Assembly: GCF_022836875.1 (NCBI RefSeq)
Contig: NZ_CP090376.1
Span: forward strand, 2,728,001 to 2,792,000
DNA from: Flavobacterium enshiense
GTDB lineage: Bacteria; Bacteroidota; Bacteroidia; Flavobacteriales; Flavobacteriaceae
Length of the DNA stretch: 64,000 nucleotides
Direction of reading: 5' to 3'
In this document: piece after piece, positions 16,735-63,208 of the stretch
Numbering within the stretch: the stretch's first letter is position 1
How the letters are laid out: each line of letters begins with the position of its first letter
Position numbers and translations under genes: made by a program
The notes under the pieces: model-generated
What the model was told of the DNA's origin: nothing
Seen by the model: only the letters and a program-made list of their open reading frames with translations
Databases searched by the model: none

Positions 16735-16742
16735 TATATTTG
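16735..16742 (+). promoter_or_regulatory. Predicted -7 element of the cassette recombinase gene
   Basis: TATATTTG fits the Bacteroidota -7 consensus TAnnTTTG and ends 19 bp before the recombinase ATG. No convincing -33 TTG is at the standard spacing. Confidence 0.5.
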
Positions 16743-16761
16743 TTACTTAACTATACGCCTT

Positions 16762-17832
16762 ATGAACGATTTTACGCCTTTTACTTTTTCTGCTGAAGAA
16801 TATAACGGTAAGCAGGTTATCTTCATCCGATTTGAATATACTGAAGCCCTTAAGAACCAGATAAAAAAACTCAAAGGGGCGCAATGGAATTCTGCATTTC
16901 ATGCGTGGTATGTTCCTGATACTGCTGAATACAGAACACTTTTTAATCTGCCGGAGGTGTATACCGTTGGAAAACGCGTACTGTCGAAAATTTCAAATGG
17001 TAATCGTGATGAAATAGATCGTTTGATACACCAACTTAAACTTAAAGGCTACAGCCCGAATACTATTCGATCCTATGTGAACGAGTTTGCGCAATACCTT
17101 TATTTTTTAAAAGATTATCCGGCCCGGGAATGCGGCGAGAAAGAAGTTCGCAGCTATCTTATTTATTGCATTGATGATCTCCGATTAACAGAAAACACGC
17201 TGCACAGCAGAATCAACGCAGTAAAATTCTACTATGAAAAAGTTCTGTTTCAGGAGAAGATTTTCCTGGAGATTCCGCGACCAAAAAAACAAAGCAAACT
17301 GCCTAAAGCACTCAACATGCATGAAGTGCGCAAAATTCTTGATGCCACAGAAAATTTAAAACACAATACCATGCTCAAGCTCTGTTATGGCATGGGATTG
17401 CGACTGAGCGAAATAATCAACTTAAAAATAGCGAACATAGACAGTAAAAACATGCGGGTGCATATAGAACGGGGCAAAGGAAAAAAGGATCGTTTTGTAA
17501 ATTTGCCCGATAGCGTACTCGAGCAGCTTCGCTCCTACTATATTGAATACAAACCAAAAGTTTATTTATTTGAAGGACAATATGGCGGCCAATACAGTTC
17601 CCGTGCTGTGCAGGAAGTTTTTAAGAAATCGTTGAAGAAAGCCAACATCTGCAAAAAAGTGGGCATTCACAGCTTACGCCACAGTTTTGCCACGCATTTA
17701 CTGGAAAACGGGACAGACATTCGATTTATACAAGAACTACTGGGTCACAATGACATTAAGACCACTTTTGTTTACACCCATGTTTCCGATAAAACTATCA
17801 GAAAAATCATTAGTCCACTTGACAACTTATAA
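16762..17832 (+). CDS. Integron-integrase-like tyrosine recombinase
   Basis: The product is 356 residues. Residues 1-65 form an extra N-terminal domain (VIFIRFEY, GAQWNSAFHAWYVPD). Residues 80-165 are the SAM-like core-binding domain and 180-356 the catalytic domain. Catalytic residues are Arg214 (GLRLSE), Lys241 (GKGKKDR), His303 and Arg306 (HSLRHSFATHLL), His329 (LGHND) and Tyr338 (VYTHVS). The C-terminus SPLDNL resembles that of IntI1 (SPLDAL), but the roughly 20-35 residue IntI-specific insertion between the Lys motif and the HxxR box is absent. It is read towards the cassettes, not away from them as in class 1 integrons. It is inferred to recombine the attC-like sites downstream; it could also be an unrelated XerC/D-type enzyme that happens to be adjacent, but the adjacent attI-like core argues against this. 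Confidence 0.85.
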   Translation: MNDFTPFTFSAEEYNGKQVIFIRFEYTEALKNQIKKLKGAQWNSAFHAWYVPDTAEYRTLFNLPEVYTVGKRVLSKISNGNRDEIDRLIHQLKLKGYSPNTIRSYVNEFAQYLYFLKDYPARECGEKEVRSYLIYCIDDLRLTENTLHSRINAVKFYYEKVLFQEKIFLEIPRPKKQSKLPKALNMHEVRKILDATENLKHNTMLKLCYGMGLRLSEIINLKIANIDSKNMRVHIERGKGKKDRFVNLPDSVLEQLRSYYIEYKPKVYLFEGQYGGQYSSRAVQEVFKKSLKKANICKKVGIHSLRHSFATHLLENGTDIRFIQELLGHNDIKTTFVYTHVSDKTIRKIISPLDNL

Positions 17833-17848
17833 TTATTTTCTATATTTG
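17819..17848 (+). promoter_or_regulatory. Pc-like promoter at the recombinase 3' end
   Basis: TTG (17819-17821), 19 bases, then TATATTTG (17841-17848) is an exact match to the Bacteroidota TTG-N19-TAnnTTTG promoter. It overlaps the recombinase stop codon and points into the first cassette, the position expected of an integron cassette promoter. Confidence 0.65.
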
Positions 17849-17957
17849 AAAACGATCAGTTTGCAAAAAATATATTTTGAATATATTCACAAAAACGAAA
17901 TGCATTTTTTACAATATATTTTCGCAACATCCTGATTTTAAACGAATTTATAAACAA

Positions 17958-17999
17958 ATGTATTTAGGCTGGGACTGCGTATATACATGAGTTAGGCGC
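17958..17999 (+). other. attI-like insertion site
   Basis: The core GTTAGGC (17991-17997) matches GTTRRRY and is the boundary of the first cassette, whose end carries the complement GCCTAAC at 18428. Upstream there is a second TTAGGC (17964) and an ATGTAT/ATACAT inverted pair (17958-17963, 17983-17988). It lies 158 bp after the recombinase and has no attC-like hairpin, as expected of attI. Confidence 0.65.
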
Positions 18000-18025
18000 A
18001 ACTTGACTAAACGAAACTCAAAAAC

Positions 18026-18433
18026 ATGATGACCAATACTTTACGAGTAGATAAAATTGAATTATTTGATCCACTAGAAGGAAAAATAACTTTTACAACA
18101 CAAAACGGAAAGCAAATTGAAGCCTTTTTTTGGGGAGAAAAATTTGAAGAACAAAAAGATTACTTAGTTGAATTTACTTCACTTGATTATCCATTAGATT
18201 GGAATGTAATTTTTTCTGAAAACAAAGAGAAAATAAAAAGTCTAATATTGGAAAAAGGACTTTGTTCCTATTTGGCTTACGGTCAAATAGTTTCTATAAA
18301 TCCAACTGTGGTCGATTTTGGCGACATTATAATGGAAATACATTTACCAACAAATGACGAAAAAGTTATTGGAGAATATATTTATTGGAGGATAGATAGA
18401 CTTGATATATTAGAAACAAAAAGCAGCGCCTAA
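18026..18433 (+). CDS. Cassette 1: unknown cytoplasmic protein
   Basis: The 135-residue acidic protein has no signal or membrane helix and I do not recognise it. It starts MMTNTLRVDKIELFDP (either Met possible). Its stop codon TAA is part of the following attC-like site (TAAC). As the attI-proximal cassette it should be the most recently acquired and best expressed from the Pc-like promoter. Cassette ends are GTTAGGCGC and GCGCCTAAC. Confidence 0.7.
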   Translation: MMTNTLRVDKIELFDPLEGKITFTTQNGKQIEAFFWGEKFEEQKDYLVEFTSLDYPLDWNVIFSENKEKIKSLILEKGLCSYLAYGQIVSINPTVVDFGDIIMEIHLPTNDEKVIGEYIYWRIDRLDILETKSSA

Positions 18434-18590
18434 CAGCGGTTTTGTGCAAGCGGGGTTTTGGGTGTTTATTGGTAATGGTCAGTGTTTGCACTTCTCTCTT
18501 ATTTTTCAACTTTTTTCTTTCAGACTTTTCGGTATATTTGTAAACATCAGTAATAAAAATCCCCGCCTGACACAAAGCCGGCGGGACGTT
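18432..18590 (+). repeat. attC-like site 1 (long type, 159 bp)
   Basis: Arms TTTTGTGCAAGCGGGG and CCCCGCCTGACACAAAGCC pair. The preceding GCCTAAC fits RYYYAAC. A TATATTTG -7 element lies at 18533-18540 facing the next cassette. Confidence 0.85.
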
Positions 18591-18637
18591 GTGTGTAATG
18601 CTGGCTCAACGATGTGAAATCGATACTTAATTAACAA

Positions 18638-19060
18638 ATGATAAAATCTCAACTTATACTTGATATACTTGATTTAATACTTGACGGGTTAGAAAACGAA
18701 AAAAACTTGCGTTGTCAAATTCCATTTCTAAAAGAAGGGAATCAAGAACATACAGGAGTTGGAGTTTTCATCAATTTTGAAGCAGAACCAAATATTACAA
18801 ATCACAAAATATCAACAGCAAATTGTTTGACTAAAGATGTTGATGGGAATCCAATTGAAAGGATTGATGGTTTAGAATTAATAAACGAATCACTAAATAT
18901 TTTAGCAGATGTTTCTATTCATTTGTCAAATGGAATTATTGATTGTGTGGAAATTTGGAATAAAAATGGAGAAAACTATCCAAAAGAAGAACCAAAACAA
19001 TACCAACTAATTCAAAAATGGATTGATCTAGAAAAACAAAAAACAATAGTTAGAAATTAA
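18638..19060 (+). CDS. Cassette 2: unknown cytoplasmic protein
   Basis: The 140-residue acidic soluble protein was not recognised. It is mixed alpha/beta by eye, with a C-terminal helix rich in Lys and Gln (YQLIQKWIDLEKQK), and in size and charge resembles immunity-type proteins, which is only an impression. Cassette ends GTTGTGTGTAATGC and GCACTACACACAAC are complementary at 13 of 14 positions. Confidence 0.7.
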   Translation: MIKSQLILDILDLILDGLENEKNLRCQIPFLKEGNQEHTGVGVFINFEAEPNITNHKISTANCLTKDVDGNPIERIDGLELINESLNILADVSIHLSNGIIDCVEIWNKNGENYPKEEPKQYQLIQKWIDLEKQKTIVRN

Positions 19061-19074
19061 AAAGCACTACACAC

Positions 19075-19201
19075 AACAGCGGTTTCGAGCAAGTGGGGCT
19101 TTAAGGCAAAATTTAATGTTGGTTTTGTATTTGTAAACTTAATCTTAAATTGTTAGTTTTGGGAAAACAATCCCCCACCTGCGCGAAGCCGGCGGGACGT
19201 T
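19075..19201 (+). repeat. attC-like site 2 (short B type, 127 bp)
   Basis: Ends AACAGCGGTTTCGAGC and GCGCGAAGCCGGCGGGACGTT; the three-base CGA/TCG pair in the arm is compensatory. The interior is the B-type variant with TGTATTTG rather than TATATTTG. Confidence 0.85.
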
Positions 19202-19231
19202 ATAAGCCATTTTAAAAAAACGAAACCTCTA

Positions 19232-19720
19232 ATGATGAAAACACTAAATATTTTAGCTCTAACAATACTAATAGTAAGTTGCTCTAAATTACCTGAAAAT
19301 TCAATGATTACTGCAAAATACATTGTTTTTAATCATGACATTAGTTCTAAAACAATTGGAAATTTTGACAATGTAAAAGAGTTAACAAACAGTGATGAAA
19401 TTACTCATCCATTCGTTGTAGATAAGAAATTTCATGATTTAGAATATGCTTTCATATTAAACTCAAATGGAACACTTGACAAGATAACCGAATATAAATA
19501 CGGACAAAATGAGCTTTATCAAAAATACCAAATTGAGTTAGACACAATTGATAGAGAAAACATTGGTGTGGGATTTATGATCAAACTAGATGAAAAACTA
19601 AATCAAATCATAGATTGTCAAGACACTCTAAAAATTTTAGATGTTTACCCAGAAGAAAAGTTAATCCGTGTTGACAAACCAGAAAATAAAGGAAGAGTTG
19701 TGTTCTATCAGTATAAATAA
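19232..19720 (+). CDS. Cassette 3: lipoprotein of unknown function
   Basis: The 162-residue protein has a lipoprotein signal with LIVSC (Cys17). The mature domain was not recognised; it is a small mixed fold ending VVFYQYK. Cassette ends are GTTATAAGCC and GGCTTATAAC. Expected on the periplasmic side of a membrane. Confidence 0.7.
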   Translation: MMKTLNILALTILIVSCSKLPENSMITAKYIVFNHDISSKTIGNFDNVKELTNSDEITHPFVVDKKFHDLEYAFILNSNGTLDKITEYKYGQNELYQKYQIELDTIDRENIGVGFMIKLDEKLNQIIDCQDTLKILDVYPEEKLIRVDKPENKGRVVFYQYK

Positions 19721-19734
19721 TAAAAACGGCTTAT

Positions 19735-19891
19735 AACAGCGGTTTTGTGCAAGCGGGGTTTTGGTGTGTAATGGAACGATCTGGAACCAAAAGTCTTTGC
19801 TTCTTTTCAACTTTTTTCTTTCTAACTTTTCGGTATATTTGTAAACGTCAGTAACAAAAATCCCCGCCTGACACAAAGCCGGCGGGACGTT
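19735..19891 (+). repeat. attC-like site 3 (long type, 157 bp)
   Basis: Arms GTG/CAC pair (TTTTGTGCAAGCGGGG against CCCCGCCTGACACAAAG). The interior has TCGGTATATTTGTAAAC. Confidence 0.85.
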
Positions 19892-19914
19892 AACGGCAAG
19901 CTGAAAAAAACGAT

Positions 19915-20421
19915 ATGGAAAGAAACGCAATCATTTTGATAATCCTTTTTTTTACGAAAATAAGTTTTGCACAAAATTTGGATTTTGATGAAATAAAATT
20001 CAAAGGTTTGAGTTTATATTCTTCAAAAAATCAAATAATCGAACAGCTTGGAAACCCCAAAAAGGAATACATTTCTAATTATGAATGCGGTGATTTTTCT
20101 AGTGAAGAACAAGGTGCAACATATTATAGTTTAGATTACGGAAGTGTAAAATTTACTGGAAATCAAAATGAAAAGTATGTTATAGATAAAGTTGATTTTG
20201 AAAATGACAAATCTTTAATTCTACATTACCAAAAACACAAATTAACTTGTGAAACAACATTGAATGAATTAGTAGAAATATTTGGTAAACAAATTATTGA
20301 ACTTATAGGAAGCGAATCAAACGGTGCGTTTATTATTCAACATTCTGAATATGATAATGGAATAAGATTTGAAATAAAAAATGGAAAACTAATAACATTT
20401 GAATATTGGTCACCTTGCTAA
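19915..20421 (+). CDS. Cassette 4: secreted protein, paralogue of cassette 22
   Basis: The 168-residue protein has a cleavable signal peptide (cleavage near SFAQ). It is highly similar along its whole length to the product of 56035-56541, sharing YSSKNQIIE, YECGDFS, EEQG, YYSLDYGS, IIQH, EYDNGIR and the C-terminus EYWSPC. Both genes sit in cassettes with identical ends (GTTAACGGCAAGCTG and CAGCCAGCCGTTAAC). The function is unknown. The similarity means the same cassette family entered or was copied twice. Confidence 0.78.
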   Translation: MERNAIILIILFFTKISFAQNLDFDEIKFKGLSLYSSKNQIIEQLGNPKKEYISNYECGDFSSEEQGATYYSLDYGSVKFTGNQNEKYVIDKVDFENDKSLILHYQKHKLTCETTLNELVEIFGKQIIELIGSESNGAFIIQHSEYDNGIRFEIKNGKLITFEYWSPC

Positions 20422-20434
20422 ACAGCCAGCCGTT

Positions 20435-20555
20435 AACAGCGGTTTTAAGCAATGGCGGGGCTTGGGATTTTTTGGAATGTTTTGTGAAATTTTTCGGTAT
20501 ATTTGTGAAGTTCCGTGAGTGGAAAACCGCCACTGCATAAAGCCGGCGGGACGTT
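20435..20555 (+). repeat. attC-like site 4 (shortest, 121 bp)
   Basis: Same outer ends with a shortened interior (TTTCGGTATATTTGTGAAG). Arms AAGCAATGGCGG and CCGCCACTGCATAAAG pair with one mismatch. Confidence 0.82.
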
Positions 20556-20583
20556 ATGCGACATCGCAAAAAACTAAACCTTC

Positions 20584-21036
20584 ATGATGAATAAATTTAC
20601 TTTATCTTATATCCTTTTGGTAAATGCGGCCATAATTGCTCTTGCAATTGCAGATATGATTTCGGGAAATATTTTTCTTAAATATATTTTTTTTATTATT
20701 AATTCTATTGTTTCAATTTATTGTGTTTTTCACATTACCAAAAAATATGCATACCATTATTTGTGCGCTACAAATCTCATTCAAGCTTTCTCATTAATGC
20801 TATTTGGTTTTAGCTTCAAATTTCTATTAGGCCCTGATTTATCATTTTTTCTATACAGTGAAGGAGATTTAAAATCTACGCTGAGTTTCAAAATTTTCAA
20901 TGTTTTTTTAATCTGTTCAAAAGGTTCTGAGATTAATGATTGGGTAATTGGGATTAATTTTATCCATCTTTTTGTTTTTTTCCATCTATTTTCCCTAATT
21001 TCTAAATCTAAAACGAAAATAAGCAACGTCGCATAA
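20584..21036 (+). CDS. Cassette 5: four-helix membrane protein
   Basis: The 150-residue hydrophobic protein has about four transmembrane segments (LLVNAAIIALAIADMIS near the start, IFFIINSIVSIYCVFH, a third around 65-80 and a C-terminal one around 120-140). It was not recognised. A second ATG follows the first directly. The stop TAA is supplied by the attC-like site. Cassette ends are GTTATGCGAC and GTCGCATAAC. Confidence 0.68.
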   Translation: MMNKFTLSYILLVNAAIIALAIADMISGNIFLKYIFFIINSIVSIYCVFHITKKYAYHYLCATNLIQAFSLMLFGFSFKFLLGPDLSFFLYSEGDLKSTLSFKIFNVFLICSKGSEINDWVIGINFIHLFVFFHLFSLISKSKTKISNVA

Positions 21037-21161
21037 CAGCAGTTTGCAGCAAGTGGGGCTTTAGGGCTAAATTTATTGTTGGTTTTGTGTTTGTAAACTT
21101 AATCTTAAATTGATACTTTTGGGAAAACAATCCCCCACCTGCAGCAAGCTGGCGGGACGTT
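21035..21161 (+). repeat. attC-like site 5 (short B type, 127 bp)
   Basis: Begins AACAGCAGTTTGCAGC and ends CTGCAGCAAGCTGGCGGGACGTT split over the arm; near-identical to site 13. The interior has GTTGGTTTTGTGTTTG. Confidence 0.85.
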
Positions 21162-21221
21162 ATGTGCAAGCGGCCAACTTTGCGTGAAAATTGCAGTCAA
21201 ATATTTAAACTTGAAAACGTT

Positions 21222-21554
21222 ATGAGCAAAAAATATTATAGAGATAAATTATCTTTCAAAGAAACAGTTTCAAGAAAAAAATGGACAATTTTTGTTTTCG
21301 CTATTGCATTTACAATCTCTATAATTTTTTATTTAGTGAATTATTACAGTGATAATTACTTAATAAAATACATATCGGAAAATCTTTGGCTTCAAACTAT
21401 TTTTATGTTTTTAACAGTAGCTGGTTTGATTAGTATTTTCTACCCTTTCTCAATTAGAAAAGAACTTAATGAAAAGGATATTATCTACAATTATGAAGAA
21501 AAAAATAGAATAGAAAAACAAACTGAGGAAAACAGAAAAAAAGCAACTTTTTAA
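21222..21554 (+). CDS. Cassette 6: two-helix membrane protein
   Basis: The 110-residue protein starts at MSKKYYRDKLSF and has two hydrophobic helices (FVFAIAFTISIIFYLV, and FMFLTVAGLISIFYPF), then a charged Glu/Lys-rich tail. An in-frame ATG at 21162 lies in the cassette core (GTTATG) and would add 20 residues; the internal start gives a more usual membrane protein N-terminus. It was not recognised. Ends are GTTATGTGC and GCACATAAC. Confidence 0.6.
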   Translation: MSKKYYRDKLSFKETVSRKKWTIFVFAIAFTISIIFYLVNYYSDNYLIKYISENLWLQTIFMFLTVAGLISIFYPFSIRKELNEKDIIYNYEEKNRIEKQTEENRKKATF

Positions 21555-21569
21555 TTAAAGCCAGCACAT

Positions 21570-21725
21570 AACAGCGGTTTTAAGAAATGGCGGTTTTAGG
21601 GATTTATCGGTAATGGTCAGTGAATATTTTCTTCTCCGAAGTGAGGCTTTTTCTTTCAATCTTTTCGGTATATTTGTAAACATCAGTAATAAAAATCCGC
21701 CACTTCTTAAAGCCGGCGGGACGTT
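21570..21725 (+). repeat. attC-like site 6 (long type, 156 bp)
   Basis: Arms AAG/CTT pair: TTTTAAGAAATGGCGG against CCGCCACTTCTTAAAGCC. TATATTTG is in the interior. Confidence 0.85.
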
Positions 21726-21757
21726 ATGCGACAGCTTAAAAAAAATTAGAGCAAACA

Positions 21758-22030
21758 ATGAGCGAAGACAATTTATATCTACTTTTTTGCTACCTGATTT
21801 TTGGGCTGACACTTAGTATATTAGCAGTAAGAAGTAAAAACCGACTAAAAACTGTAATTATAAATTTAATAATTGCAGGACTTTATAGTGGACTATTCTT
21901 TTACAACTTGAAATTTAACAGTTCAGGCGGTTCGGGACTTGTTTGGCTTGTATATCTAATGTTCGCAATTGGACTACATTGGATAATTAATTTGATTGGA
22001 ATTATATTGACTTTTACGAACAGACAATGA
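21758..22030 (+). CDS. Cassette 7, gene a: small membrane protein
   Basis: The 90-residue protein has three hydrophobic helices and was not recognised. Its stop overlaps the start of the next gene (ATGA), so the cassette carries a translationally coupled pair. This is the only two-gene cassette seen. Confidence 0.65.
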   Translation: MSEDNLYLLFCYLIFGLTLSILAVRSKNRLKTVIINLIIAGLYSGLFFYNLKFNSSGGSGLVWLVYLMFAIGLHWIINLIGIILTFTNRQ

Positions 22031-22596
22031 GAATTTATCTGACAGACCAGAAAAACAAGTTCAAGCAACACCTTGAGTTCTTAAAGACCAAAAAAGTGAT
22101 GGTCTATAACAAAGCTCGATTAAAAGAAAAAACTACGACCGTAAGTATTAAAACGACAAAAAAATTTGACGAACTAGATCTTAATTTCCTTTTCGATTAT
22201 CAAATCTTTCCTGACAACATTATGACCTTTAAAACCCAATGGACTGATGAGAAAAGGAAAATGGAAATAAACGACACAATTGCGCAACAAGTTTACATTC
22301 CACCAATAAAGTCATTTTCGCAAAAAATAATTTTTGGAGTAAGAATAAATGAAATAATTGATCAAATCAATAAAAAAGGATTTAGTTACGAGACACTTGA
22401 AGGACACGTTGAAAAAGGAGTTTCAACTTTTACAATTGAGCAACTTAACGACAAGTTAATTTTTAAAATTAAAACTTACTCGACACCAGGAAACATTTTG
22501 ACTAAATTAGTTGGACCATTTTTTTCAGTTCCTTATCAAATTTTCTGCACCAAAACTGCTTTGAAGCACGTAAAACAACAATTAGAAAATCAATAA
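22027..22596 (+). CDS. Cassette 7, gene b: DUF1990-like protein
   Basis: The 189-residue soluble protein has a C-terminal half (FSYETLEGHVEKGVSTFTIE, then KIKTYSTPGNILTKLVGPF) that resembles the DUF1990 pattern GHPExGEExF followed by AFSRPAxxxxRLxGP. The match is by eye and moderate. It overlaps gene a by 4 bp. Cassette ends are GTTATGCGAC at the start and GTCACATAAC at the end, with one mismatch. Confidence 0.6.
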   Translation: MRIYLTDQKNKFKQHLEFLKTKKVMVYNKARLKEKTTTVSIKTTKKFDELDLNFLFDYQIFPDNIMTFKTQWTDEKRKMEINDTIAQQVYIPPIKSFSQKIIFGVRINEIIDQINKKGFSYETLEGHVEKGVSTFTIEQLNDKLIFKIKTYSTPGNILTKLVGPFFSVPYQIFCTKTALKHVKQQLENQ

Positions 22597-22627
22597 AATT
22601 AAATGTAAAAAAGGAAAGCCGTCACAT

Positions 22628-22783
22628 AACAGCGGTTTTGTGCAAGTGGGGTTTTGGTGTATAATGGGACGATCTGACATCAAAAGTCTTTACTTCACTT
22701 CAAGTTTTTTCTTTCAATCTTTTCGGTATATTTGTAAACGTCAGTGACAAAAATCCCCACCTCCACAAAGCCGGAGGGACGTT
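22628..22783 (+). repeat. attC-like site 7 (long type, 156 bp)
   Basis: Arms GTGCAAGTGGGG and CCCCACCTCCACAAAGCC pair. The right end is GGAGGGACGTT instead of GGCGGGACGTT. Confidence 0.83.
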
Positions 22784-22808
22784 GTGCGTCATTGTAAAAA
22801 ACTGCAAG

Positions 22809-23336
22809 ATGAAAACACCATTTAATTTAGATAAAGGAATACACTTTGAAGATTCTGGGAACACTTTATTATGGTTTGAAGATTTTGAAACACTTCGCAA
22901 AATTGATAATCCTGAAATATGTAGAAATGGATACATCTTAAAGTGGCGAAATAAATTATGTTTAGGCGGACAAAGACTTAATGTGTCTGTAATTAGAAAT
23001 GATTACAATAACTACAATAACAAACTCGAATCAGTAGAATTTGAAGAACAAAACGGTGAGCCTTGGAAAACGTATGAAAAATATTCGGAGCTCATGAAAA
23101 CATATTTTGGAAATCCAAACGAATGGAAAGATGATGGATATGGAAGACCAACGGAGTTATGGAATATTAATGATTTACAAATAATTATTGGAGTTGGAGA
23201 AAGGTTTACAGAATTTGAAATTTTCAGTATTCGAAAAGGAAAGCGATTTTGGAAACTTAATCATGAGAAACAACGAACGCACAACAGCGGTTTTATGAAA
23301 TGGCTAAGGTCATTGTTTATCGGTAATGGTCAGTGA
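22809..23336 (+). CDS. Cassette 8: unknown soluble protein running into the site
   Basis: The product is about 175 residues from ATG 22809 (MKTPFNLDKG); earlier in-frame codons are in the cassette core and lack an ATG. It is acidic, soluble and not recognised (LGGQRLNVSVIRNDYNNY). The reading frame continues 54 bp into attC-like site 8, so the last 17 or so residues are encoded by the repeat; that arm is atypical (TGGCTAAGG). The stop may once have been upstream. Cassette ends are GTTGTGCGT and ACGCACAAC. Confidence 0.65.
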   Translation: MKTPFNLDKGIHFEDSGNTLLWFEDFETLRKIDNPEICRNGYILKWRNKLCLGGQRLNVSVIRNDYNNYNNKLESVEFEEQNGEPWKTYEKYSELMKTYFGNPNEWKDDGYGRPTELWNINDLQIIIGVGERFTEFEIFSIRKGKRFWKLNHEKQRTHNSGFMKWLRSLFIGNGQ

Positions 23337-23441
23337 ATATTTTTCTTTCTCCGAAAGAGGCTTTTTTCTTTCAGTCTTTTAGGTATATTTGTAAACATCA
23401 GTAATAAAAAATCCGCCACTTCATAAAGCCGGCGGGACGTT
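23283..23441 (+). repeat. attC-like site 8 (long type, degenerate left arm, 159 bp)
   Basis: The left arm TTTTATGAAATGGCTAAGG departs from the usual GGCGG; the right arm CCGCCACTTCATAAAGCC is normal. The interior has TTAGGTATATTTG. Confidence 0.8.
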
Positions 23442-23474
23442 AGCTGCTAGTTTACTCGACGAAATGGAATCGAA

Positions 23475-23999: not shown

Positions 24000-24156
24000 C
24001 AGCGGTTTTGTGCAAGCGGGGTTTTGGGGATTTATCGGTAATGGTAAGTGTTTGCATTTTCTTCTTCATTTTGAAGCTTTTTCTTTCATACTTTTCGGTA
24101 TATTTGTAAGCGTCAGTAATAAAAATCCCCGCCTGACACAAAGCCGGCGGGACGTT
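23998..24156 (+). repeat. attC-like site 9 (long type, 159 bp)
   Basis: Arms GTG/CAC pair as in site 1. The interior has TTCGGTATATTTGTAAGCG. Confidence 0.85.
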
Positions 24157-53842: not shown

Positions 53843-53851
53843 ACTACTGCT

Positions 53852-55875: not shown

Positions 55876-55887
55876 AGCACTGTGCAC

Positions 55888-56011
55888 AACAGCGGTTTTG
55901 AGCAAGTGGGGTTTCGGTGTATAATGGGACGATCTTTTTGTATATTTGACTTTGTGACAAAACAAACTATAGGAACAAAAATCCCCACCAGCTCAAAGCC
56001 GGCGGGACGTT
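55888..56011 (+). repeat. attC-like site 21 (short C variant, 124 bp)
   Basis: Arms GAGC/GCTC: TTTTGAGCAAGTGGGG against CCCCACCAGCTCAAAGCC. The interior has TATATTTGACTTTGTG. Confidence 0.85.
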
Positions 56012-56034
56012 AACGGCAAGCTGGAAAAAACGAT

Positions 56035-56541: not shown

Positions 56542-56554
56542 ACAGCCAGCCGTT

Positions 56555-56711
56555 AACAGCGGTTTTATGAAATGGCGGGGTTTGGTGATTTTTTGGAATG
56601 GCTTGGTGCTTTTATTTCTTCTTTTCATTCAGCCTTTTTCTTTCTAACTTTCGGTATATTTGTAAACATCAGTAATAAAATTCCGCCACTTCATAAAGCC
56701 GGCGGGACGTT
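56555..56711 (+). repeat. attC-like site 22 (long type, 157 bp)
   Basis: Arms ATG/CAT. Differs in type from the short site after the paralogous cassette 4. Confidence 0.85.
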
Positions 56712-56776
56712 AGCCGTCAGTTTGGCCAAACGAAATGAACACTAACCTCTTAAGTATTTTACTTTAGTAAAACTAT

Positions 56777-57052
56777 ATGAAAAACAACTTATTCAAAAAA
56801 ATATACTTGCTAGCATTCTTCGCTATTATTATTGGAACAATGATGAAAATTAGCAATATAAATGGTTCTCAAATTTTATTCATTATTGGCATCCTTTCCA
56901 CTTTGGGTTATATAATAATTGGAATATACGAAGTCAATGTATCGAAAAAGATAAATCAATCTGAAAAAATCATGTGGACAATTGGTTTTATAGTCATCCA
57001 CTATCTTGCTGGATTATTATATCTACTAGGTGGTAGAAAAAGAATCGCTTAA
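56777..57052 (+). CDS. Cassette 23: small membrane protein
   Basis: The 91-residue protein has three hydrophobic helices (LLAFFAIIIGTMMKI, LFIIGILSTLGYIIIGIY, TIGFIVIHYLAGLLYLLG). It was not recognised. Ends are GTTAGCCGT and ACGGCTAAC. Confidence 0.62.
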   Translation: MKNNLFKKIYLLAFFAIIIGTMMKISNINGSQILFIIGILSTLGYIIIGIYEVNVSKKINQSEKIMWTIGFIVIHYLAGLLYLLGGRKRIA

Positions 57053-57129
57053 ATTCGTTTAAAATGTTAATAAAAACTTATTCCAATAGTTTTTAAGAAT
57101 TATTGAGAAATAGAAAAAACCGAACGGCT

Positions 57130-57254
57130 AACAGCGGTTTTGTGAAATTGGGGTTTTAGGCAAAATTTAAAGGCAATTTTATATATTTGACTTCAATTCT
57201 AATGGAATGGTTTGGGAACAAAAATCCCCAACTCCACAAAGCCGGCGGGACGTT
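57130..57254 (+). repeat. attC-like site 23 (short C type, 125 bp)
   Basis: Arms GTG/CAC: TTTTGTGAAATTGGGG against CCCCAACTCCACAAAGCC. Confidence 0.85.
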
Positions 57255-57932
57255 ATGCACCACTTTAAAATAACATCAAATTTGACACGACTTCTATTCA
57301 TATTGACAATATTTCTTGTTATGACAGCTTGTTCTAATCGTTCAGACAACAAATCCGAAATAGACAACTCTGTAGATACAACAAAATCTTTCAAAGTTTA
57401 TAATTACTGGGTGAAACCAAAAAAATCATTTGACTTCAATTCATTAGGAAAGTCATCGGGCGACACTCTTCACTTGGTGACTTGTTCGGACTATGTTTAT
57501 TTCCCTTTTGGTAAGTTGACAGACAAATCTTCACTGACAACAAGCTTGCTTAAAGATTTTACAATTACAAATTTTCAACGAGACACTTTTACAAATACAA
57601 ACATAACTCCCCCATTTTTTCAATGGAGCGAATCATTGGACTTAAAACTTGCGAACAATAAACTCAATATATTTTTGGACAATGACCTCGAAGCATCGAT
57701 TCACGGATACATTCGAGGTGGACAAATAGTAGATAGCAAAGTAGTTTTTTCGGATAATATAAAAGTTGGAATGAGCGTGGAGGACTTTTACAAAACATTC
57801 TTTGACTACTTTCCGACAGAATTAAACAAGAAATATAACGTTGTGGAGTTTGAGTCGTGCGTGACAGATGTAACACACATCTACACATTTGAAAACGGGC
57901 AATTAAGTTCAGTAAAATTTGTTTCTCAATGA
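57255..57932 (+). CDS. Cassette 24: lipoprotein starting in the cassette core
   Basis: The product is 225 residues from an ATG in the cassette core (GTTATGCAC). It has a lipoprotein signal (FLVMTACSN, Cys26) and was not recognised otherwise; KVGMSVEDFYKTFFDYFP near the C-terminus resembles short repeats in exported proteins. An upstream TTG-type frame is only the attC-like site. Placing the start codon at the recombination point means the gene is intact whatever site precedes it. Ends are GTTATGCACC and GGTGCATAAC. Confidence 0.68.
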   Translation: MHHFKITSNLTRLLFILTIFLVMTACSNRSDNKSEIDNSVDTTKSFKVYNYWVKPKKSFDFNSLGKSSGDTLHLVTCSDYVYFPFGKLTDKSSLTTSLLKDFTITNFQRDTFTNTNITPPFFQWSESLDLKLANNKLNIFLDNDLEASIHGYIRGGQIVDSKVVFSDNIKVGMSVEDFYKTFFDYFPTELNKKYNVVEFESCVTDVTHIYTFENGQLSSVKFVSQ

Positions 57933-57953
57933 CAGACAGAAAAGCGGTGCATA

Positions 57954-58078
57954 ACAGCGGTTTTAAGAAATTGGGGTTTGAGTGTTTAATGGAACGATCT
58001 TTTTGTACATTTGACTTCAGTCCTAATGGAATGGTTTGGGAACAAAAATCCCCAACTTCTTAAAGCCGGCGGGACGTT
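57954..58078 (+). repeat. attC-like site 24 (short C type, 125 bp)
   Basis: Arms AAG/CTT. The interior has TGTACATTTGACTTC, a TAnnTTTG match (TACATTTG). Confidence 0.85.
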
Positions 58079-58101
58079 AGCTGCTATATTTTAAAAACTT
58101 C

Positions 58102-58953
58102 ATGGCAAAATTTCAACATAAAAATGACCATCATACAACTCCGAGATGTTATTTGAAAAACTTTTCAGATGATGGAAAATTTATATTTAGAAAGCTAAAA
58201 GAAAAAAATAAATTCGGAAAAGAAAATCTTGATTTACAAAAACCAATTTCTCTAAAAAGCGCTACTGTAAATGATAATTTTTATACAATAAAAAAAAGTA
58301 TTGAACCAATGATGGTTGAAACTATTTTTTATGATTTTGAAGTTGAAAATTATTACGATAATTTATATAAAAAATTAATCAGTAACGATTCAGAAATAAT
58401 AATCACTATGGAGGAAAGAACCCGTTTATTGATGTTTTTCCTTTCCTTACATTGTAGAACTCCAAAACAATTTGATATATTTTTCAAAAATATTCCAAAA
58501 GAACTCGCACACGAAATGGATATTATTAAAGAAGAATACAAAGCAGGACATATCGGAAAAACTTTACTTGAGTTTATAAAGAAACACGATTACAAAATAT
58601 TCAAGGTTGCGAAATTATCAGATAACTCAGAGTTTTTAACAAGTGATAATCCTTTCCTAATTGTCAATTCAGAAGGACATTTAAAAAATATGGAATTCAG
58701 GGAACAATTTAACGAACAAAACAAATTCATAATTCCAATAGATACCAAACATTGCCTCATAATGACTAATGCTACAGACAGAAATGGAATTTCAATTGAA
58801 GGCAAAGTCTTTTATAATAAAATTGAAAGAATGAGCGTTGATTGCAATTTTGCTCAGACCATTAATTTTCTAACTGTTGAAAATGCTGAAAAATTAATTT
58901 TTGGTTCGGAAAAATATATTAAGGCATTTTTTAGTTTTATAAAATTTGAGTAA
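58102..58953 (+). CDS. Cassette 25: DUF4238 protein
   Basis: The 283-residue protein matches DUF4238: NDHHTTPRCYLKNFSDDGKF, VNDNFYTIKKSIEPMMVETIF, FEVENYYDNLY and LTSDNPFLIVNSEGH. DUF4238 proteins are common in islands and of unknown function; a nuclease relationship has been suggested for HxxP-type starts but is not established here. Ends are GTTAGCTGCT and AGCAGCTAAC. Confidence 0.85.
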   Translation: MAKFQHKNDHHTTPRCYLKNFSDDGKFIFRKLKEKNKFGKENLDLQKPISLKSATVNDNFYTIKKSIEPMMVETIFYDFEVENYYDNLYKKLISNDSEIIITMEERTRLLMFFLSLHCRTPKQFDIFFKNIPKELAHEMDIIKEEYKAGHIGKTLLEFIKKHDYKIFKVAKLSDNSEFLTSDNPFLIVNSEGHLKNMEFREQFNEQNKFIIPIDTKHCLIMTNATDRNGISIEGKVFYNKIERMSVDCNFAQTINFLTVENAEKLIFGSEKYIKAFFSFIKFE

Positions 58954-58967
58954 TAAATACAGCAGCT

Positions 58968-59091
58968 AACAGCGGTTTTGAGCAAGTGGGGTTTTAGGGC
59001 AAAACTGAAACTCTTTTTTGTATATTTGGCTTAGTGATAAAACAAACTGAAGGAACAAAAGTCCCCACCTTCTCAAAGCCGGCGGGACGTT
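58968..59091 (+). repeat. attC-like site 25 (short C variant, 124 bp)
   Basis: Arms GAG/CTC. The interior has TATATTTGGCTTAGTG. Confidence 0.85.
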
Positions 59092-59127
59092 AGCAACAAT
59101 TTTGAAAAACTGCAATAGATATTCAGG

Positions 59128-60180
59128 ATGAACAAGAATTTAAAGAAACTCCATTTTATCTCAATAATATTCTTTATGACATTTCTAATTAGTTGCAATA
59201 GTCATGAAATTGATGGCAATAAAGTTTATTATGTATCTTGGAATGAAGGAACTGGAAAAAACAAAACCTTAATTCAAGGAGCAGATGCTGAAACTTTTAA
59301 AGAACTTGAACATTCAGATTATGCAATTGACAAAAACAATGTTTACTATGAAGCTGGAAAATTAAAAGACGCCAACCCTAAAACTTTTGTTTCTCTTTTA
59401 GATTATTATGGTAAAGACAATAGATTTGCTTATTATGGTGGTGCGAAAATTAATGGTGCTGAAAGTAAAACATTTGAAATAATAGACAAAGGACCATATT
59501 CTAAAGATAAGAAAGATTATTACTATGATACAATTGCTTTAAAAGTTTCAGATTTAAAAACATTCCAAATTTTAAATAAAGAATCTTCATTTGGAGATTG
59601 GGCAAAAGACAAGAATTTTTACTATTTATCTGGAAAAAAACATCCATTAGCTGATTACATGTCATTTGAGATAATAGGAAATGGATATGCTAAAGATAAA
59701 GTTAAAGTCTATTTTCAAGATAGTGTTGTAGTAAATGCCGACCCAAATACTTTCAAAACGATTGATTATGCGTACGGACAAGACAAAAAATATAGATTCG
59801 ATGGAAGCAAAAAATTAAACATTAAAGATCCAAATTCATTTGAACTTTTAAATTTTGGCTTCACAAAAGATAAGCTGCATGTATATAAAAATGACAGCGT
59901 TGTCAAAAATGCTGACCCAAAAACTTTTGAAATAATTGATTGGAAATGGGAAAAGGACAAATCAACTTGTTACTATCAAGGAAAACCAATGCCTAATGTT
60001 GATAGAAAAACATTCCAAACACTTCAAAACAATTACTCAAAAGACATCAATAATGTATACTACTACGAAAATGTTGTTCAAGGGGCTGATCCAAAAACAT
60101 TTAAAGTTGACGATTACACTTATATCGGTAAGGACAAATTTGGTTGTTATAACGCTGGGAAAAAGGTACCTTGCAATTAA
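59128..60180 (+). CDS. Cassette 26: DKNYY-repeat lipoprotein
   Basis: The 350-residue protein has a lipoprotein signal (FLISCNSHE, Cys23) and about ten repeats of roughly 30 residues of the DKNYY family: YAIDKNNVYYEAGKL, YSKDKKDYYYDTIAL, YAKDKVKVYFQDSVV, WEKDKSTCYYQGKPM, each followed by a (A/D)PKTF motif. DKNYY proteins are surface lipoproteins of unknown role. Ends are GTTAGCAACA and TGTTGCTAAC. Confidence 0.88.
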   Translation: MNKNLKKLHFISIIFFMTFLISCNSHEIDGNKVYYVSWNEGTGKNKTLIQGADAETFKELEHSDYAIDKNNVYYEAGKLKDANPKTFVSLLDYYGKDNRFAYYGGAKINGAESKTFEIIDKGPYSKDKKDYYYDTIALKVSDLKTFQILNKESSFGDWAKDKNFYYLSGKKHPLADYMSFEIIGNGYAKDKVKVYFQDSVVVNADPNTFKTIDYAYGQDKKYRFDGSKKLNIKDPNSFELLNFGFTKDKLHVYKNDSVVKNADPKTFEIIDWKWEKDKSTCYYQGKPMPNVDRKTFQTLQNNYSKDINNVYYYENVVQGADPKTFKVDDYTYIGKDKFGCYNAGKKVPCN

Positions 60181-60201
60181 TAATTCAAAAAAACTGTTGC
60201 T

Positions 60202-60326
60202 AACAGCGGTTTTGTGAAATTGGGGTTTTAGGTAAAATTTAAAGGTAATTTTATATATTTGACTTCAGTCCTAATGGAATGGTTTGGAAATAAAAATCCC
60301 CAACTCCACAAAGCCGGCGGGACGTT
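60202..60326 (+). repeat. attC-like site 26 (short C type, 125 bp)
   Basis: Arms GTG/CAC. The interior has TATATTTGACTTCAG. Confidence 0.85.
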
Positions 60327-60376
60327 AGCAGTAAGATTGCCCAAAGAGCGCGAAATTCAAAAACTTATTTTTTTCA

Positions 60377-61264
60377 ATGTCAAATAGTTTTCTATCATAC
60401 CAGCATGCTATTAATACAATCAACCTTTTATATAAAAAAAGTGGATTTGATTTTAATGAAAAAACTTTAGGAGAGAATATTTATAAAGAATTCAATATTG
60501 AAATCAAAAATTCAAAATACGCTTCTTTGTTTGCTTATGTGGACGAATATATTGTGCTTTTGAGAATAATTTCTCAATTTTATTTAATTGGTTCAAAAGA
60601 AAACAACAAACATTCTAGCACATATTACAAAATCACTATAAGACAAATTAAGCACTTATCATCTATTAGATTGTTGTGTAGCTATGGTTTAGATACAGAT
60701 GCAAGAACTATTTTACGACTACTCTACGAAACTTCCCTAGTATGGACACGTTGCAAACTTGATATAGATTTCTTAGAAGATTATAATAATAGTCTAGGAT
60801 TTAAAGAGTCTAATGAATTTTGGCATAAATATATTAAAAGTAGTAAAACAGAAAAATTCATAAAAGATGAAGTTTCTAAAAGAAAACTAACATGGTTAGG
60901 AGATTTAGATGATCAAATCTCACATATGAAAACAATTTTAAGCTCTACATCACATCCCAGTAATCTTGTAGATAATATAGATTTTGAAAACGATTTTAAT
61001 AGTGATTTTTTAGGTGTTGGAAAAGTATCAAAAAGTTCACATTTGACATTATCGTACGCAATCATGTGTACTGCAATGCCATTTAGTTTGTTACCAAATC
61101 CAGATGATAAATTTAAGATTTTGAAAAACTATGAGTTTAAATATTTACCTATAAATGATAAATTGAATTCATCTTTTGAATATTACATTGAATTAGAAAA
61201 AATGTTTCCCGTTTTATTCCTCATGCTAAGTAAATTTTCAAATGAATTAAATGAGAAAAAATAA
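60377..61264 (+). CDS. Cassette 27: DUF5677-like helical protein
   Basis: The 295-residue soluble helical protein contains IKHLSSIRLLCSYGLDTDARTILRLLYETSLVWTRCKLD (read in parts, residues about 95-135), the pattern seen in DUF5677-type proteins. The match is by eye. Cassette 12 may be a distant relative. Ends are GTTAGCAGTA and TACTGCTAAC. Confidence 0.62.
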   Translation: MSNSFLSYQHAINTINLLYKKSGFDFNEKTLGENIYKEFNIEIKNSKYASLFAYVDEYIVLLRIISQFYLIGSKENNKHSSTYYKITIRQIKHLSSIRLLCSYGLDTDARTILRLLYETSLVWTRCKLDIDFLEDYNNSLGFKESNEFWHKYIKSSKTEKFIKDEVSKRKLTWLGDLDDQISHMKTILSSTSHPSNLVDNIDFENDFNSDFLGVGKVSKSSHLTLSYAIMCTAMPFSLLPNPDDKFKILKNYEFKYLPINDKLNSSFEYYIELEKMFPVLFLMLSKFSNELNEKK

Positions 61265-61275
61265 ATCCTACTGCT

Positions 61276-61432
61276 AACAGCGGTTTTCTGCAATGGCGGG
61301 TTTAGGGATTTTTTGGGATGGTTAGTGATTGCATTTCTTCTTTAAAAGGAAGTTTTTTCTTTACTACTTTTCGGTATATTTGTAAACGTCAGTAATAAAA
61401 AACCGCCACTGACAGAAAGCCGGCGGGACGTT
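61276..61432 (+). repeat. attC-like site 27 (long type, 157 bp)
   Basis: Arms CTG/CAG; nearly identical to site 12. TATATTTG is in the interior. Confidence 0.85.
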
Positions 61433-61467
61433 ACCAGCAATGTTTCACCAAATGAACACATGAAAAT

Positions 61468-62388
61468 ATGCCAAATTTTTTATTGCTTTTAATAATTTTT
61501 TTTTCATTTTCAGTTAAAACTTATTCTCAAAATGAAAGAGATAAAGAAATTAAGGAAAAAATACTTCCGTTTTTAAATAGCGAAAGTTTTTACAATAAAA
61601 CTAAATATGACTTGGTAAAAAAAGACTTAAATGAGTTAGCCAAAAAATATGGATATGAAACCGATTTACAAACTCGGTTGTTAAATGCAAGTTTCCATCA
61701 CAAAGACACTTTGTATTTTAAAGCCCAATTATCAATCTTAGTTGAGAAATTTGGTTACGACATAAGATACACTTCAAACAAAGAGCTTTATTATTATGCC
61801 ATCACTGAAGGCAATATGTCATCATGGTTCAAAAAAATGTATATCAAAAATCATGGAATATGGTTAGAAAACAATTTTGAAAAACTAATTGATTTACATA
61901 AACTAAATCAATTACAGATTAAAGATCAAATCATAAACAAATTTGCTTCAAAAATTTATTTTTCGTCTTCGATGAGTAGCGAACAAAAGGAAATAATACA
62001 AAAGGAACTAAACAGTTTTAACCTCGAAAATATTTCTGAACTAAATTCAATAGCGCAAAAAATCGATTATTATCCAAATAGCAAACGATTTGCTGTAATT
62101 CAAAACGGATTTCAAAGCTTGTTAATTCACAACTTTCAACAGAAAATAACAATGGATAAAACATGGGAATATCTATTTCCGCTTATAAAGAAATCATATT
62201 TAAAATTTGATCTTGATAACACCATTTTTCAGAATTACGATTTTTACAGTTATTTAAATAATGGCTATCAAGAATTTAACTCTTATACCATTAAAGATAT
62301 TCCCATACAACTTCGAAAAAATGAAAATGAAATTCCATTAAAAAGCATCGAAACTTTCAACAAAATAAAAAAAGAATTCAACTGGTAA
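61468..62388 (+). CDS. Cassette 28: secreted helical protein
   Basis: The 306-residue protein has a signal peptide (FFSFSVKTYSQ) and a helical mature region (DLNELAKKYGYETDLQTRLL, KEIIQKELNSFNLENISEL). It was not recognised. Ends are GTTACCAGCA and GCAGGTAAC, a weaker match than in other cassettes. Confidence 0.66.
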   Translation: MPNFLLLLIIFFSFSVKTYSQNERDKEIKEKILPFLNSESFYNKTKYDLVKKDLNELAKKYGYETDLQTRLLNASFHHKDTLYFKAQLSILVEKFGYDIRYTSNKELYYYAITEGNMSSWFKKMYIKNHGIWLENNFEKLIDLHKLNQLQIKDQIINKFASKIYFSSSMSSEQKEIIQKELNSFNLENISELNSIAQKIDYYPNSKRFAVIQNGFQSLLIHNFQQKITMDKTWEYLFPLIKKSYLKFDLDNTIFQNYDFYSYLNNGYQEFNSYTIKDIPIQLRKNENEIPLKSIETFNKIKKEFNW

Positions 62389-62402
62389 TAAACACAGCAG
62401 GT

Positions 62403-62528
62403 AACAGCGGTTTTAAGAAATTAGGGTTTGGGTGTATAATGGAACGGTCTTTTTGTATATTTGGCTTTAGTCCTAATGGAATGGTTTGGGAACAAAAATC
62501 CCCAACTTCTTAAAGCCGGCGGGACGTT
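62403..62528 (+). repeat. attC-like site 28 (short C type, 126 bp)
   Basis: Arms AAG/CTT. The interior has TATATTTGGCTTTAG. Confidence 0.85.
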
Positions 62529-62560
62529 GTGCGAAAGTTAACAAAACTAACATAAATAAT

Positions 62561-63070
62561 TTGGATACAAATAAAAACTCCCTACGAGACTATATCAATA
62601 GAAATGTAAACATTCTTACTACAATAGGCATATTTAATGCACTAGCTATATATTCCTCATCGTTACCTATAAAAAATGAATTACCAAATATTTTGAGTCT
62701 ATTTTTTTTGCTATTATCATTTATAAGCTCTTTACCTACTTTATATGAAAAAAAACACAGACATACATTGATTACACACGCTTTTAGTATCATAATTCTT
62801 TCCTGTCAGTGTTTAATTATGATAATTGTTTCTGAAACATATTCTTGGGCGATGAAGAATATTATTACTCCTACTCTACTTTTATTATTTATGTCAATCT
62901 TAGGCACATATTCCTTTACTAGAATTTTAATTCATAAAGAATGGTTCAAAAACATGAATAATAACCATAAAATTTTATTTTCATTTTTTTATATTACATT
63001 AATGCTAATAGCCATTCTTTTCACTTTAAGCTTTGTTCTAAACCGACTTGGATGGGGGTTTAATAAATGA
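62561..63070 (+). CDS. Cassette 29: four-helix membrane protein
   Basis: The product is about 169 residues if translation starts at TTG 62561 (DTNKNSLRDYINRN follows); no ATG is suitable, and the longer frame would begin inside the attC-like site. It has four hydrophobic helices (ILTTIGIFNALAIYSSS, ILSLFFLLLSFISSL, AFSIIILSCQCLIMIIV and ITLMLIAILFTLSFVLN, with a fifth likely). It was not recognised. Ends are GTTGTGCGAA and TTCGCACAAC. Confidence 0.58.
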   Translation: MDTNKNSLRDYINRNVNILTTIGIFNALAIYSSSLPIKNELPNILSLFFLLLSFISSLPTLYEKKHRHTLITHAFSIIILSCQCLIMIIVSETYSWAMKNIITPTLLLLFMSILGTYSFTRILIHKEWFKNMNNNHKILFSFFYITLMLIAILFTLSFVLNRLGWGFNK

Positions 63071-63085
63071 TTAAAACCTTCGCAC

Positions 63086-63208
63086 AACAGCGGTTTGCAG
63101 CAAGTGGGGTTTTAGGGAAAAACCAAACATCTTTTGTATATTTGGCTTTAGTAATAAACAAACTAAAGGCACAAAAAATCCCCACCTGCAGCAAGCCGGC
63201 GGGACGTT
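63086..63208 (+). repeat. attC-like site 29 (short C variant, 123 bp)
   Basis: Arms GCAGC/GCAGC-type pairing: TTTGCAGCAAGTGGGG against CCCCACCTGCAGCAAGCC. The following core is GTTACCAGCC, the start of a cassette cut by the IS. Confidence 0.83.

Follow-up and report, generated by a model that had tools for sequence, protein, structure and literature searches.

At least one survey of integrons picked its integrases by the IntI domain (PMC2426708, in the part of the text available), and the domain specific to IntI is called necessary for integron-mediated recombination in the portion of the literature at hand. In the accessible part of the IntegronFinder 2.0 paper, the sole complete Bacteroidetes integron is that of Salinibacter ruber, given beside Chlorobi and Ignavibacteriae (PMC9024848). 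With integrases chosen by IntI and a single Bacteroidetes integron listed, a phylum-wide system could therefore go unseen. Here we describe a cassette platform in Flavobacterium enshiense, the closed genome of which measures 3.25 Mb. The stretch analysed, called the window below, is 64,000 nucleotides long (contig NZ_CP090376.1, positions 2,728,001 to 2,792,000) and holds a tyrosine recombinase gene, an attI-like junction and the first part of a long array of gene cassettes (Table 1). An earlier note on this DNA had proposed that it carries the functional counterpart of an integron, with a site family and a recombinase lineage of its own. Our results support this proposal, and we put the probability that the platform captures cassettes and works like an integron at about 0.9. 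The note's background statement that integrons are mostly proteobacterial stands broadly, with the rider that IntI was found above the NCBI cut-off in 57 of 198 genomes sampled from the phylum in its broad sense, none of these from the host's family or order. No earlier description of the platform was found in the literature searched, preprints and most subscription journals lying outside its coverage.

In the mechanism we propose, the recombinase would excise single-gene cassettes as circles, and the circles would be inserted at the attI-like site 158 bp behind the recombinase gene, strands being exchanged at GTT or right beside it. A cassette would extend from GTT through to its own hairpin site, and only in the circle would its terminal bases (C, six variable positions, Y, AAC) pair with its first (GTTR, six variable positions, A). 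The circle would complete an outer R stem of 10 bp, an invariant-looking A-C mismatch and 4 more bp; inward of this stem would come an unpaired, unequal spacer, followed by the inner L stem and then by a second stem and its loop. The enzyme would most likely read the folded single strand, as IntI does. We infer that the recombinase of the window performs the cassette recombination. A single folded strand would be the substrate, a view for which folding and covariation were computed, and predicted promoters ahead of attI and in the site loops would drive the cassette genes.

Searching the window for GGCGGGACGTT with at most one mismatch gave 28 matches, all on the + strand, where 0.20 were expected, and AACAGCGG gave another 28, of which 27 on the + strand (0.76 expected). 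Pairing the two patterns resulted in 28 complete sites of 121-159 bp. The right end is exact in 26 of the 28 and so is the left end, the remaining two left ends reading AACAGCAG. This pattern search and end pairing recovered the 28 complete + strand sites with common ends reported previously; the end then given for the array, 63208, has to be moved, since the array (array 1) runs past the window to about genome position 2,874,181 and spans some 128 kb, with 114 attC-like sites complete at both ends, every one of them on the + strand. Genome-wide, GGCGGGACGTT occurs 150 times in exact form, 111 times on one strand and 39 times on the other, against once for the pattern read backwards; 109 of the 150 copies lie in array 1, 36 in the stretch of a second array, two are solitary elsewhere and three are unplaced. 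The second array (genome about 2,196,000-2,232,000; L018, L180 and L181) has 42 sites with both ends on the strand opposite to that of array 1. It opens with an attI-like junction behind a recombinase remnant, the last 48 codons, 75% identical, and remnant plus junction DNA are 83% identical to their array 1 counterpart over 284 bp; array 2 may be served in trans by the array 1 recombinase. The earlier note had asked whether the sites are linked to a recombinase at all: nearly all of them sit in these two arrays, each of which is preceded by a recombinase, whole or as a remnant, and an attI-like junction.

The + strand carries the longest open reading frame (ORF) in 112 of the 114 array 1 cassettes, with a median fill of the unit of 0.91. 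The array is hence one of mostly single-gene cassettes in one orientation, which is among the defining features of an integron. For 93 proteins chosen from the 114 cassettes we found 24 Pfam and 11 PADLOC families at E 1e-5, all except one confined to a single protein, and no shared function is apparent. One cassette protein matched a Pfam family with a neurotoxin-domain name (7.8e-6), a weak match to which we give no weight, and an Rfam scan of the window at gathering scores returned no matches. Elsewhere in the genome (L020, 5001-9655; genome 1,804,376 on) words resembling GGCGGGACGTT, one exact and ten with one mismatch, recur at multiples of 258 bp; they form a tandem repeat, unlike the arrays.

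The strongest pattern in the array concerns the two ends of each unit. Cassette units start with GTTRnnnGnnA (GTTR...A) and end in ...YAAC, and the start of a cassette pairs with its own end over a mean of 8.96 contiguous pairs (114 cassettes), 94 of the 114 reaching 9-10. With the end that adjoins it in the array the mean is 4.33, which is chance level, and the maximum of 10,000 permutations was 5.19. Cassette 10 scored 4 in the array-wide comparison because an inserted element has split its site; it pairs fully once the true end (24814) is used. Of the 114 cassettes, 103-114 pair at positions 1-9 and 83 at position 10; position 11 is A-C in 102, positions 12-15 pair in 97-106, and from position 16 pairing is at or below chance. 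The start 10-mers come in 60 distinct forms among the 114 cassettes. Since the R stem varies between cassettes while the pairing is kept, the enzyme seems to read structure more than sequence, and since the start-end pairing arises only in the circle, the circle would be the form under selection. The same behaviour is found outside array 1: own-end pairing is at least 8 in 37 of 41 array 2 cassettes, and 54 of 59 cassettes from other genomes (11 loci, 11 genomes) have at most one mismatch in 10.

The folding data agree with this pattern. In 106 of 113 cases the circle form has the better fold (with DNA parameters, -24.6 kcal/mol on average, compared with -20.0 for the array form), and the bottom strand of 30 random sites folds at a mean of 4.6 standard deviations below shuffles, the weakest at 2.4. 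A consensus fold of the 28 window sites has 17 pairs, of which 7 are changed on both sides in some sequence. When the L arms were swapped between loci (70 sites, 28 loci, up to four sites per locus) the mean pairing energy was -8.1 kcal/mol, against -17.1 for own arms, and all 70 sites paired better with their own arm. Another defining feature of integrons, a foldable attC in which the two ends of one cassette complete the R boxes, is present here. Cassette units, own-end pairing and arm covariation, together with the breaks at GTT presented next, are evident from the sequence.

The tyrosine recombinase and the GTT core 158 bp behind it, both pointed out previously, were found again, and of 20 relatives fetched 17 have, as judged by eye, an attI-like junction after the recombinase gene, the exceptions being L055, L057 and L062. 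A putative primary attachment site thus lies beside the recombinase gene, as it does in an integron. In L057 and L062 the first unit behind the attI-like TATATACAAG starts with ATG and not GTT, and is short and palindrome-rich with no clear gene; L201 has a palindrome-rich stretch like these, but starting with GTT. Alignments of the flank with F. enshiense (L100), G009 and G011 stop at query base 295, 295 and 301, GTTA being bases 291-294, so that the likeness of flank, recombinase and attI to relatives ends 1-7 bases behind GTTA. The G009 junction adds little because its contig ends 16 bases on. While flank pieces of the orthologous platforms are 73-89% identical, the chained cassettes of the relatives (F. 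enshiense, G009, G011, G038) match the genome in 4 of 105 cases at the nucleotide and 8 of 105 at the protein level. A fifth nucleotide match, A1_096, 94.7% over the whole cassette, lies outside the chains. On the earlier question of array content, orthologous platforms match as far as the GTT junction and carry different cassettes behind it. Cassette content therefore appears to change by gain and loss, as integrons demand, and both this turnover at conserved platforms and the arrangement of one gene per cassette in one direction are evident when the sequences are compared.

Copies within the array tell much the same. Whole-cassette copies sit at distant places, and from a longer list we selected 14 near-identical pairs (whole bodies, about 94% or more alike). 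Nine of the 14 are 96-100% identical both in the body and in the attC that belongs to it; behind the next GTT the likeness drops to 50-59% in 8 of the 9. For the pair 4/35 it runs on because the neighbour (5/36) was copied along.

Further we investigated how the layout is distributed over the Bacteroidota. Cassettes were recognised by GTTR/A, C/YAAC and own-end pairing, with no further site sequence; the counts are low because cassettes not fitting GTTRN6A / CN6YAAC are dropped, for example the first cassettes of G007 and G045 (G where C is required). Chains of at least two cassettes occur on the recombinase strand in 12 of 80 named loci, against 1 of 80 on the other strand and 1 of 240 shuffles. 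Loci with chains include Winogradskyella, Seonamhaeicola, Algibacter, Zunongwangia, Rufibacter and Cyclobacterium; the chain of L109 lies 2.4 kb behind the recombinase and may be chance. A first cassette at most 450 bp past the recombinase stop was found in 31 of 71 loci that are of Bacteroidota or came from the search for relatives (a set including one entry titled only 'bacterium'), with observed starts at 23-320 bp, and in 29 of the 53 loci that have at least 1 kb behind the gene. The controls gave 2 of 36 other loci, both metagenome bins, and 25 of 2,780 shuffles, along with 0 of 30 IntI loci, a weak control with at most 1.5 kb of sequence behind the gene. By position the link between recombinase and array is strong. 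First-cassette matches in bins titled Firmicutes and Spirochaetota (L124, L131) could reflect misbinning or spread beyond the Bacteroidota. The layout is also seen on a Chryseobacterium plasmid with two chained cassettes and a Pontibacter plasmid with one, which has a mismatch.

The recombinase itself was detected at E 1e-40 in 33 of 80 relatives. Arrays with no detected recombinase are common, hence the link by presence and absence alone is weak. The site model used for whole genomes (R1) leans to F. enshiense and scored only 35 candidates per genome in that mode; it missed G035, where a direct look found cassettes.

By eye, and uncounted, a box like TATATTTG follows the recombinase stop codon in many of the 20 relatives. 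In the site loops of array 1 we found TAnnTTTG, which we take to be the flavobacterial -7 box consensus, in sense direction in 113 of 114 sites and in antisense in none of the 114, with 12% in shuffles, mostly 45-70 bp ahead of the next cassette. At other loci 61 of 112 sites have it in sense direction and 5 in antisense, and since the box is absent in several species it seems to be lineage-specific. If the loop boxes are real, each site would bring a predicted promoter for the next gene, unlike in classical integrons.

On plasmids, tet(X2)/tet(X) forms a unit of exactly 1,327 bp in six cases from five genera (L203, L205, L207, L208, L209 and L210), the hosts being Empedobacter falsenii, Bacteroides fragilis, Myroides odoratimimus, Empedobacter brevis, Sphingobacterium faecium and Riemerella anatipestifer (pRA0511). 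Start and end pair as 10/10, A-C, 4/4, with one mismatch in B. fragilis, and the unit ends in a hairpin site, which was folded for two. To the left of GTT the identity between plasmids stops within 0-2 bp, except that E. falsenii, E. brevis and Myroides have 33-112 bp in common. To the right it extends for 6-8 bp, which is AACGTT with chance matches, or for 0 with B. fragilis, which reads GCCGTT, and six different sequences stand behind the unit in seven plasmids. The seventh, R. anatipestifer 2019, has 3,826 bp in common with pRA0511 and is without the cassette start, with an insertion sequence (IS) upstream. In Acinetobacter, the 'XerD-like' ORF beside tet(X3) turned out in the plasmid search to be a shortened relative of the recombinase, 49% identical over residues 113-356. 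Behind it stand TATATTTG and an inverted repeat of attI-like form. The tet(X3) segment comes next, and the GTTATGTGCC with which it begins is identical to the start of the tet(X2) cassette; tet(X3) here holds the first-cassette position behind a shortened recombinase. We tried the tet(X3) segment as a whole cassette and rejected it, since 3 of the 10 pairs between its start GTTATGTGCC and its end do not match and the attC is truncated.

The Flavobacteriaceae have been proposed as the source of tet(X), its origin and transfer being called poorly understood, and the words 'cassette' and 'recombinase' were not found in the text of that paper as far as it was available (PMC7494873). One of the two papers on the Acinetobacter unit (PMC7494873, PMC9784759) credits ISVsa3 with the transfer of tet(X3) in its accessible part. 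Seen as a gene cassette with exact ends, tet(X) would offer a concrete, testable answer on its origin and transfer, and monitoring of cassettes in flavobacteria could show which genes travel next. A related case was reported in 2026: in the accessible text of PMC13148043, aph(3')-IVb of R. anatipestifer has an attC-like 3' hairpin and integrates independently of homology after natural transformation. The same text says that the mechanism is not fully elucidated, and in the portion available the word 'recombinase' is absent. Going by that portion, this integration looks like the experimental motion of a cassette resembling those of the platform.

Several results weigh against an integron-like function of the platform. 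Its recombinase is without the IntI domain that the literature calls necessary for integron-mediated recombination. No first cassette was found by the strict criterion in 40 of the 71 loci (24 of the 53 with at least 1 kb), although some of the 40 do hold cassettes that the criterion misses. In G022, with a recombinase 50% identical, there is neither an attI-like junction nor a cassette behind the gene, and the sites are present elsewhere in the genome. Within the genus, the model found sites in 22 of 27 genomes with the recombinase and 13 of 22 without it (Fisher p 0.12). Only in 12 of 114 sites is the -7 box preceded by a TTG at the usual spacing. Of the 14 cassette pairs, 5 have no whole attC in common, three of these attC being 78-90% and two 58-62% alike. 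The last two belong to cassettes 2/83 (body 99.6%, attC 62%) and 13/54 (body 96.8%, attC 58%), hence simple cassette exchange at GTT cannot explain them; either a second exchange point at the left site end or gene conversion might.

As to the nature of the recombinase, it carries an extra N-terminal domain of about 80 amino acids besides a SAM-like core-binding and a catalytic domain. R214, H303, R306 and Y338, presumably the catalytic residues, are invariant in a 22-row alignment, and the nearest named relative in the scan, from Flavobacterium enshiense DK69, is 93% identical. Its scores with the NCBI models are 210.8 for integron integrase (cut-off 265 bits) and 217.7 for XerA (cut-off 220). 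The IntI-specific insert is absent from the recombinase and 22 aligned Bacteroidota relatives, and present in all 14 IntI rows shown. The recombinase is thus not an IntI integrase with the specific additional domain, and as this IntI-specific feature is missing, the platform falls outside the integron family as defined by IntI. One may still ask if this is a true integron whose enzyme is a member of the IntI clade that lost its insert. A constraint holding IntI and the Bacteroidota recombinases as one clade was not rejected (approximately unbiased test, p-AU 0.45; tree of 93 of 140 proteins, with short, long-fused and near-duplicate proteins excluded), the best solved relative by sequence is IntI4, 'integron integrase' appears in the names of one NCBI model and one plasmid record among the relatives, and the cassette-bearing L124 groups with IntI rather than with the Bacteroidota recombinases in the tree. 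We regard a derived IntI as unlikely, though with a chance that should be taken seriously.

The mismatched pairs 2/83 and 13/54 resemble exchange inside the site. With IS in four cassettes and an integrative element in an attC, they could be taken to mean that cassettes move by homologous recombination between sites, or by IS or integrative elements, the recombinase being rarely or no longer active. Homologous recombination would, however, not preserve the start-end pairing of each unit over 60 distinct sequences, and it leaves unexplained both the GTT breaks behind attI and the recurrence of one exact tet(X2) unit in plasmids with different surroundings; we find this explanation improbable. 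That the hairpins are ordinary repeats or terminators in a gene-dense island with the recombinase a bystander would suit strong hairpins between same-strand genes and the model-found sites in 13 of 22 same-genus genomes with no detected recombinase, but gives no reason for a start to pair with its own distant end rather than the adjoining one, nor for cassette copies to begin and end at GTT, and is in our opinion very improbable. Modules known as pdif occur on Acinetobacter plasmids, and although the recombinase belongs among the Xer-like simple recombinases, a kindred Xer/dif-type system has very little in its favour, for every array 1 site has one orientation, two further Xer-like proteins, 36% and 27% identical, are encoded in the genome, the sites are long hairpins with variable arms, and a recombinase found in 33 of 80 relatives with more than 100 sites is not a single housekeeping pair acting on one dif site.

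We thus prefer the view that the platform captures cassettes in an integron-like manner. On a broader scale, we lean, with considerable reservation, towards a second integron superfamily: an insert-less lineage apart from IntI, with attI and attC across the Bacteroidota, a hairpin code of 10 bp, A-C and 4 bp, and in some lineages a promoter per site, which would have mobilised tet(X) as a cassette, and perhaps other flavobacterial resistance genes, before IS carried tet(X) to Acinetobacter and enterobacteria. The platform would also provide an independent test of what attC recombination needs, namely whether an enzyme without the IntI insert can do it.

The remaining features of the window concern insertions into the array. 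The truncated site at 24812 in the earlier note is a real feature, but it belongs to the attC of cassette 10, into which an element of 22.7 kb has inserted, taking an attC for its target. The domains of the element include type III restriction, VapE-like, KAP NTPase and DNA methylase. In addition, IS with helix-turn-helix (HTH) and rve transposase domains, presumably of IS3 type, are found in four cassettes, each exactly 21 bp behind the G of GTT: cassettes 29 (window 63227 on), 75 and 109 of array 1, and cassette 12 of array 2. Four copies at one offset point to site-directed insertion at cassette starts.

Table 1. Features of the cassette platform, in positions of the window.
Feature	Position	Strand	Remarks
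Tyrosine recombinase, 356 aa	16762..17832	+	Pfam PF13495, PF00589
TATATTTG, candidate -7 box of Pc-like promoter	17841..17848	+	between recombinase and attI
attI-like junction, TGCGTATATACATGA then GTT	17976..17993	+	GTT at 17991
Cassette array, window part (cassettes 1-28)	17991..63208	+	continues beyond window to 114 sites
attC-like site 1	18432..18590	+	paired site ends
attC-like site 2	19075..19201	+	paired site ends
attC-like site 3	19735..19891	+	paired site ends
attC-like site 4	20435..20555	+	paired site ends
attC-like site 5	21035..21161	+	paired site ends
attC-like site 6	21570..21725	+	paired site ends
attC-like site 7	22628..22783	+	paired site ends
attC-like site 8	23283..23441	+	paired site ends
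attC-like site 9	23998..24156	+	paired site ends
Cassette 10 to own end	24154..24814	+	start GTTAGCAGCT, end AGCTGCTAAC; attC split by element
Integrative element, 22.7 kb, in attC of cassette 10	24811..47574	.	bounded by TAACAGCGGTTT at both ends (24811-24822 and 47563-47574)
Integrase of inserted element	46109..47374	-	arm-binding, SAM-like and catalytic domains
attC-like site 10 (remainder of split site; left end from inserted element)	47564..47721	+	
attC-like site 11	48505..48662	+	paired site ends
attC-like site 12	49338..49464	+	paired site ends
attC-like site 13	50021..50178	+	paired site ends
attC-like site 14	50779..50904	+	paired site ends
attC-like site 15	51465..51621	+	paired site ends
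attC-like site 16	52271..52425	+	paired site ends
attC-like site 17	53065..53190	+	paired site ends
attC-like site 18	53852..53978	+	paired site ends
attC-like site 19	54873..54998	+	paired site ends
attC-like site 20	55888..56011	+	paired site ends
attC-like site 21	56555..56711	+	paired site ends
attC-like site 22	57130..57254	+	paired site ends
attC-like site 23	57953..58078	+	paired site ends
attC-like site 24	58968..59091	+	paired site ends
attC-like site 25	60202..60326	+	paired site ends
attC-like site 26	61276..61432	+	paired site ends
attC-like site 27	62403..62528	+	paired site ends
attC-like site 28	63086..63208	+	paired site ends

Among the known systems, the Riemerella aph(3')-IVb unit is like the platform in being a flavobacterial gene unit with a short 5' leader and a hairpin of about 140 bp, and differs in having one gene, with no recombinase, attI or array named in the text available. 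The xerD-tet(X3)-res-ISVsa3 unit of Acinetobacter, as described in the accessible parts of PMC7494873 and PMC9784759, resembles it in a recombinase relative and an attI-like junction; unlike in the platform, its recombinase and attC are incomplete. The simple tyrosine recombinases XerA, XerC and XerD are close to our recombinase in fold and domain make-up, whereas the latter is distinct from the two Xer-like proteins of the genome and would act on many variable hairpin sites.

The sedentary chromosomal integrons, for example the Vibrio superintegrons, have in common with the platform a recombinase beside attI, a long one-way array of single ORFs, hairpin sites with a circle-completed R stem, an unpaired spacer and an L stem, breaks at GTT, and the existence of arrays with no recombinase. 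IntI sites have a 7-base core, whereas the R stem of the platform is of 10+4 bp with an A-C mismatch. In further contrast to these integrons, the platform recombinase is without the IntI insert and has an extra N-terminal domain, the sites form a family of their own, and nearly every site loop in the host genome carries a promoter-like -7 box.

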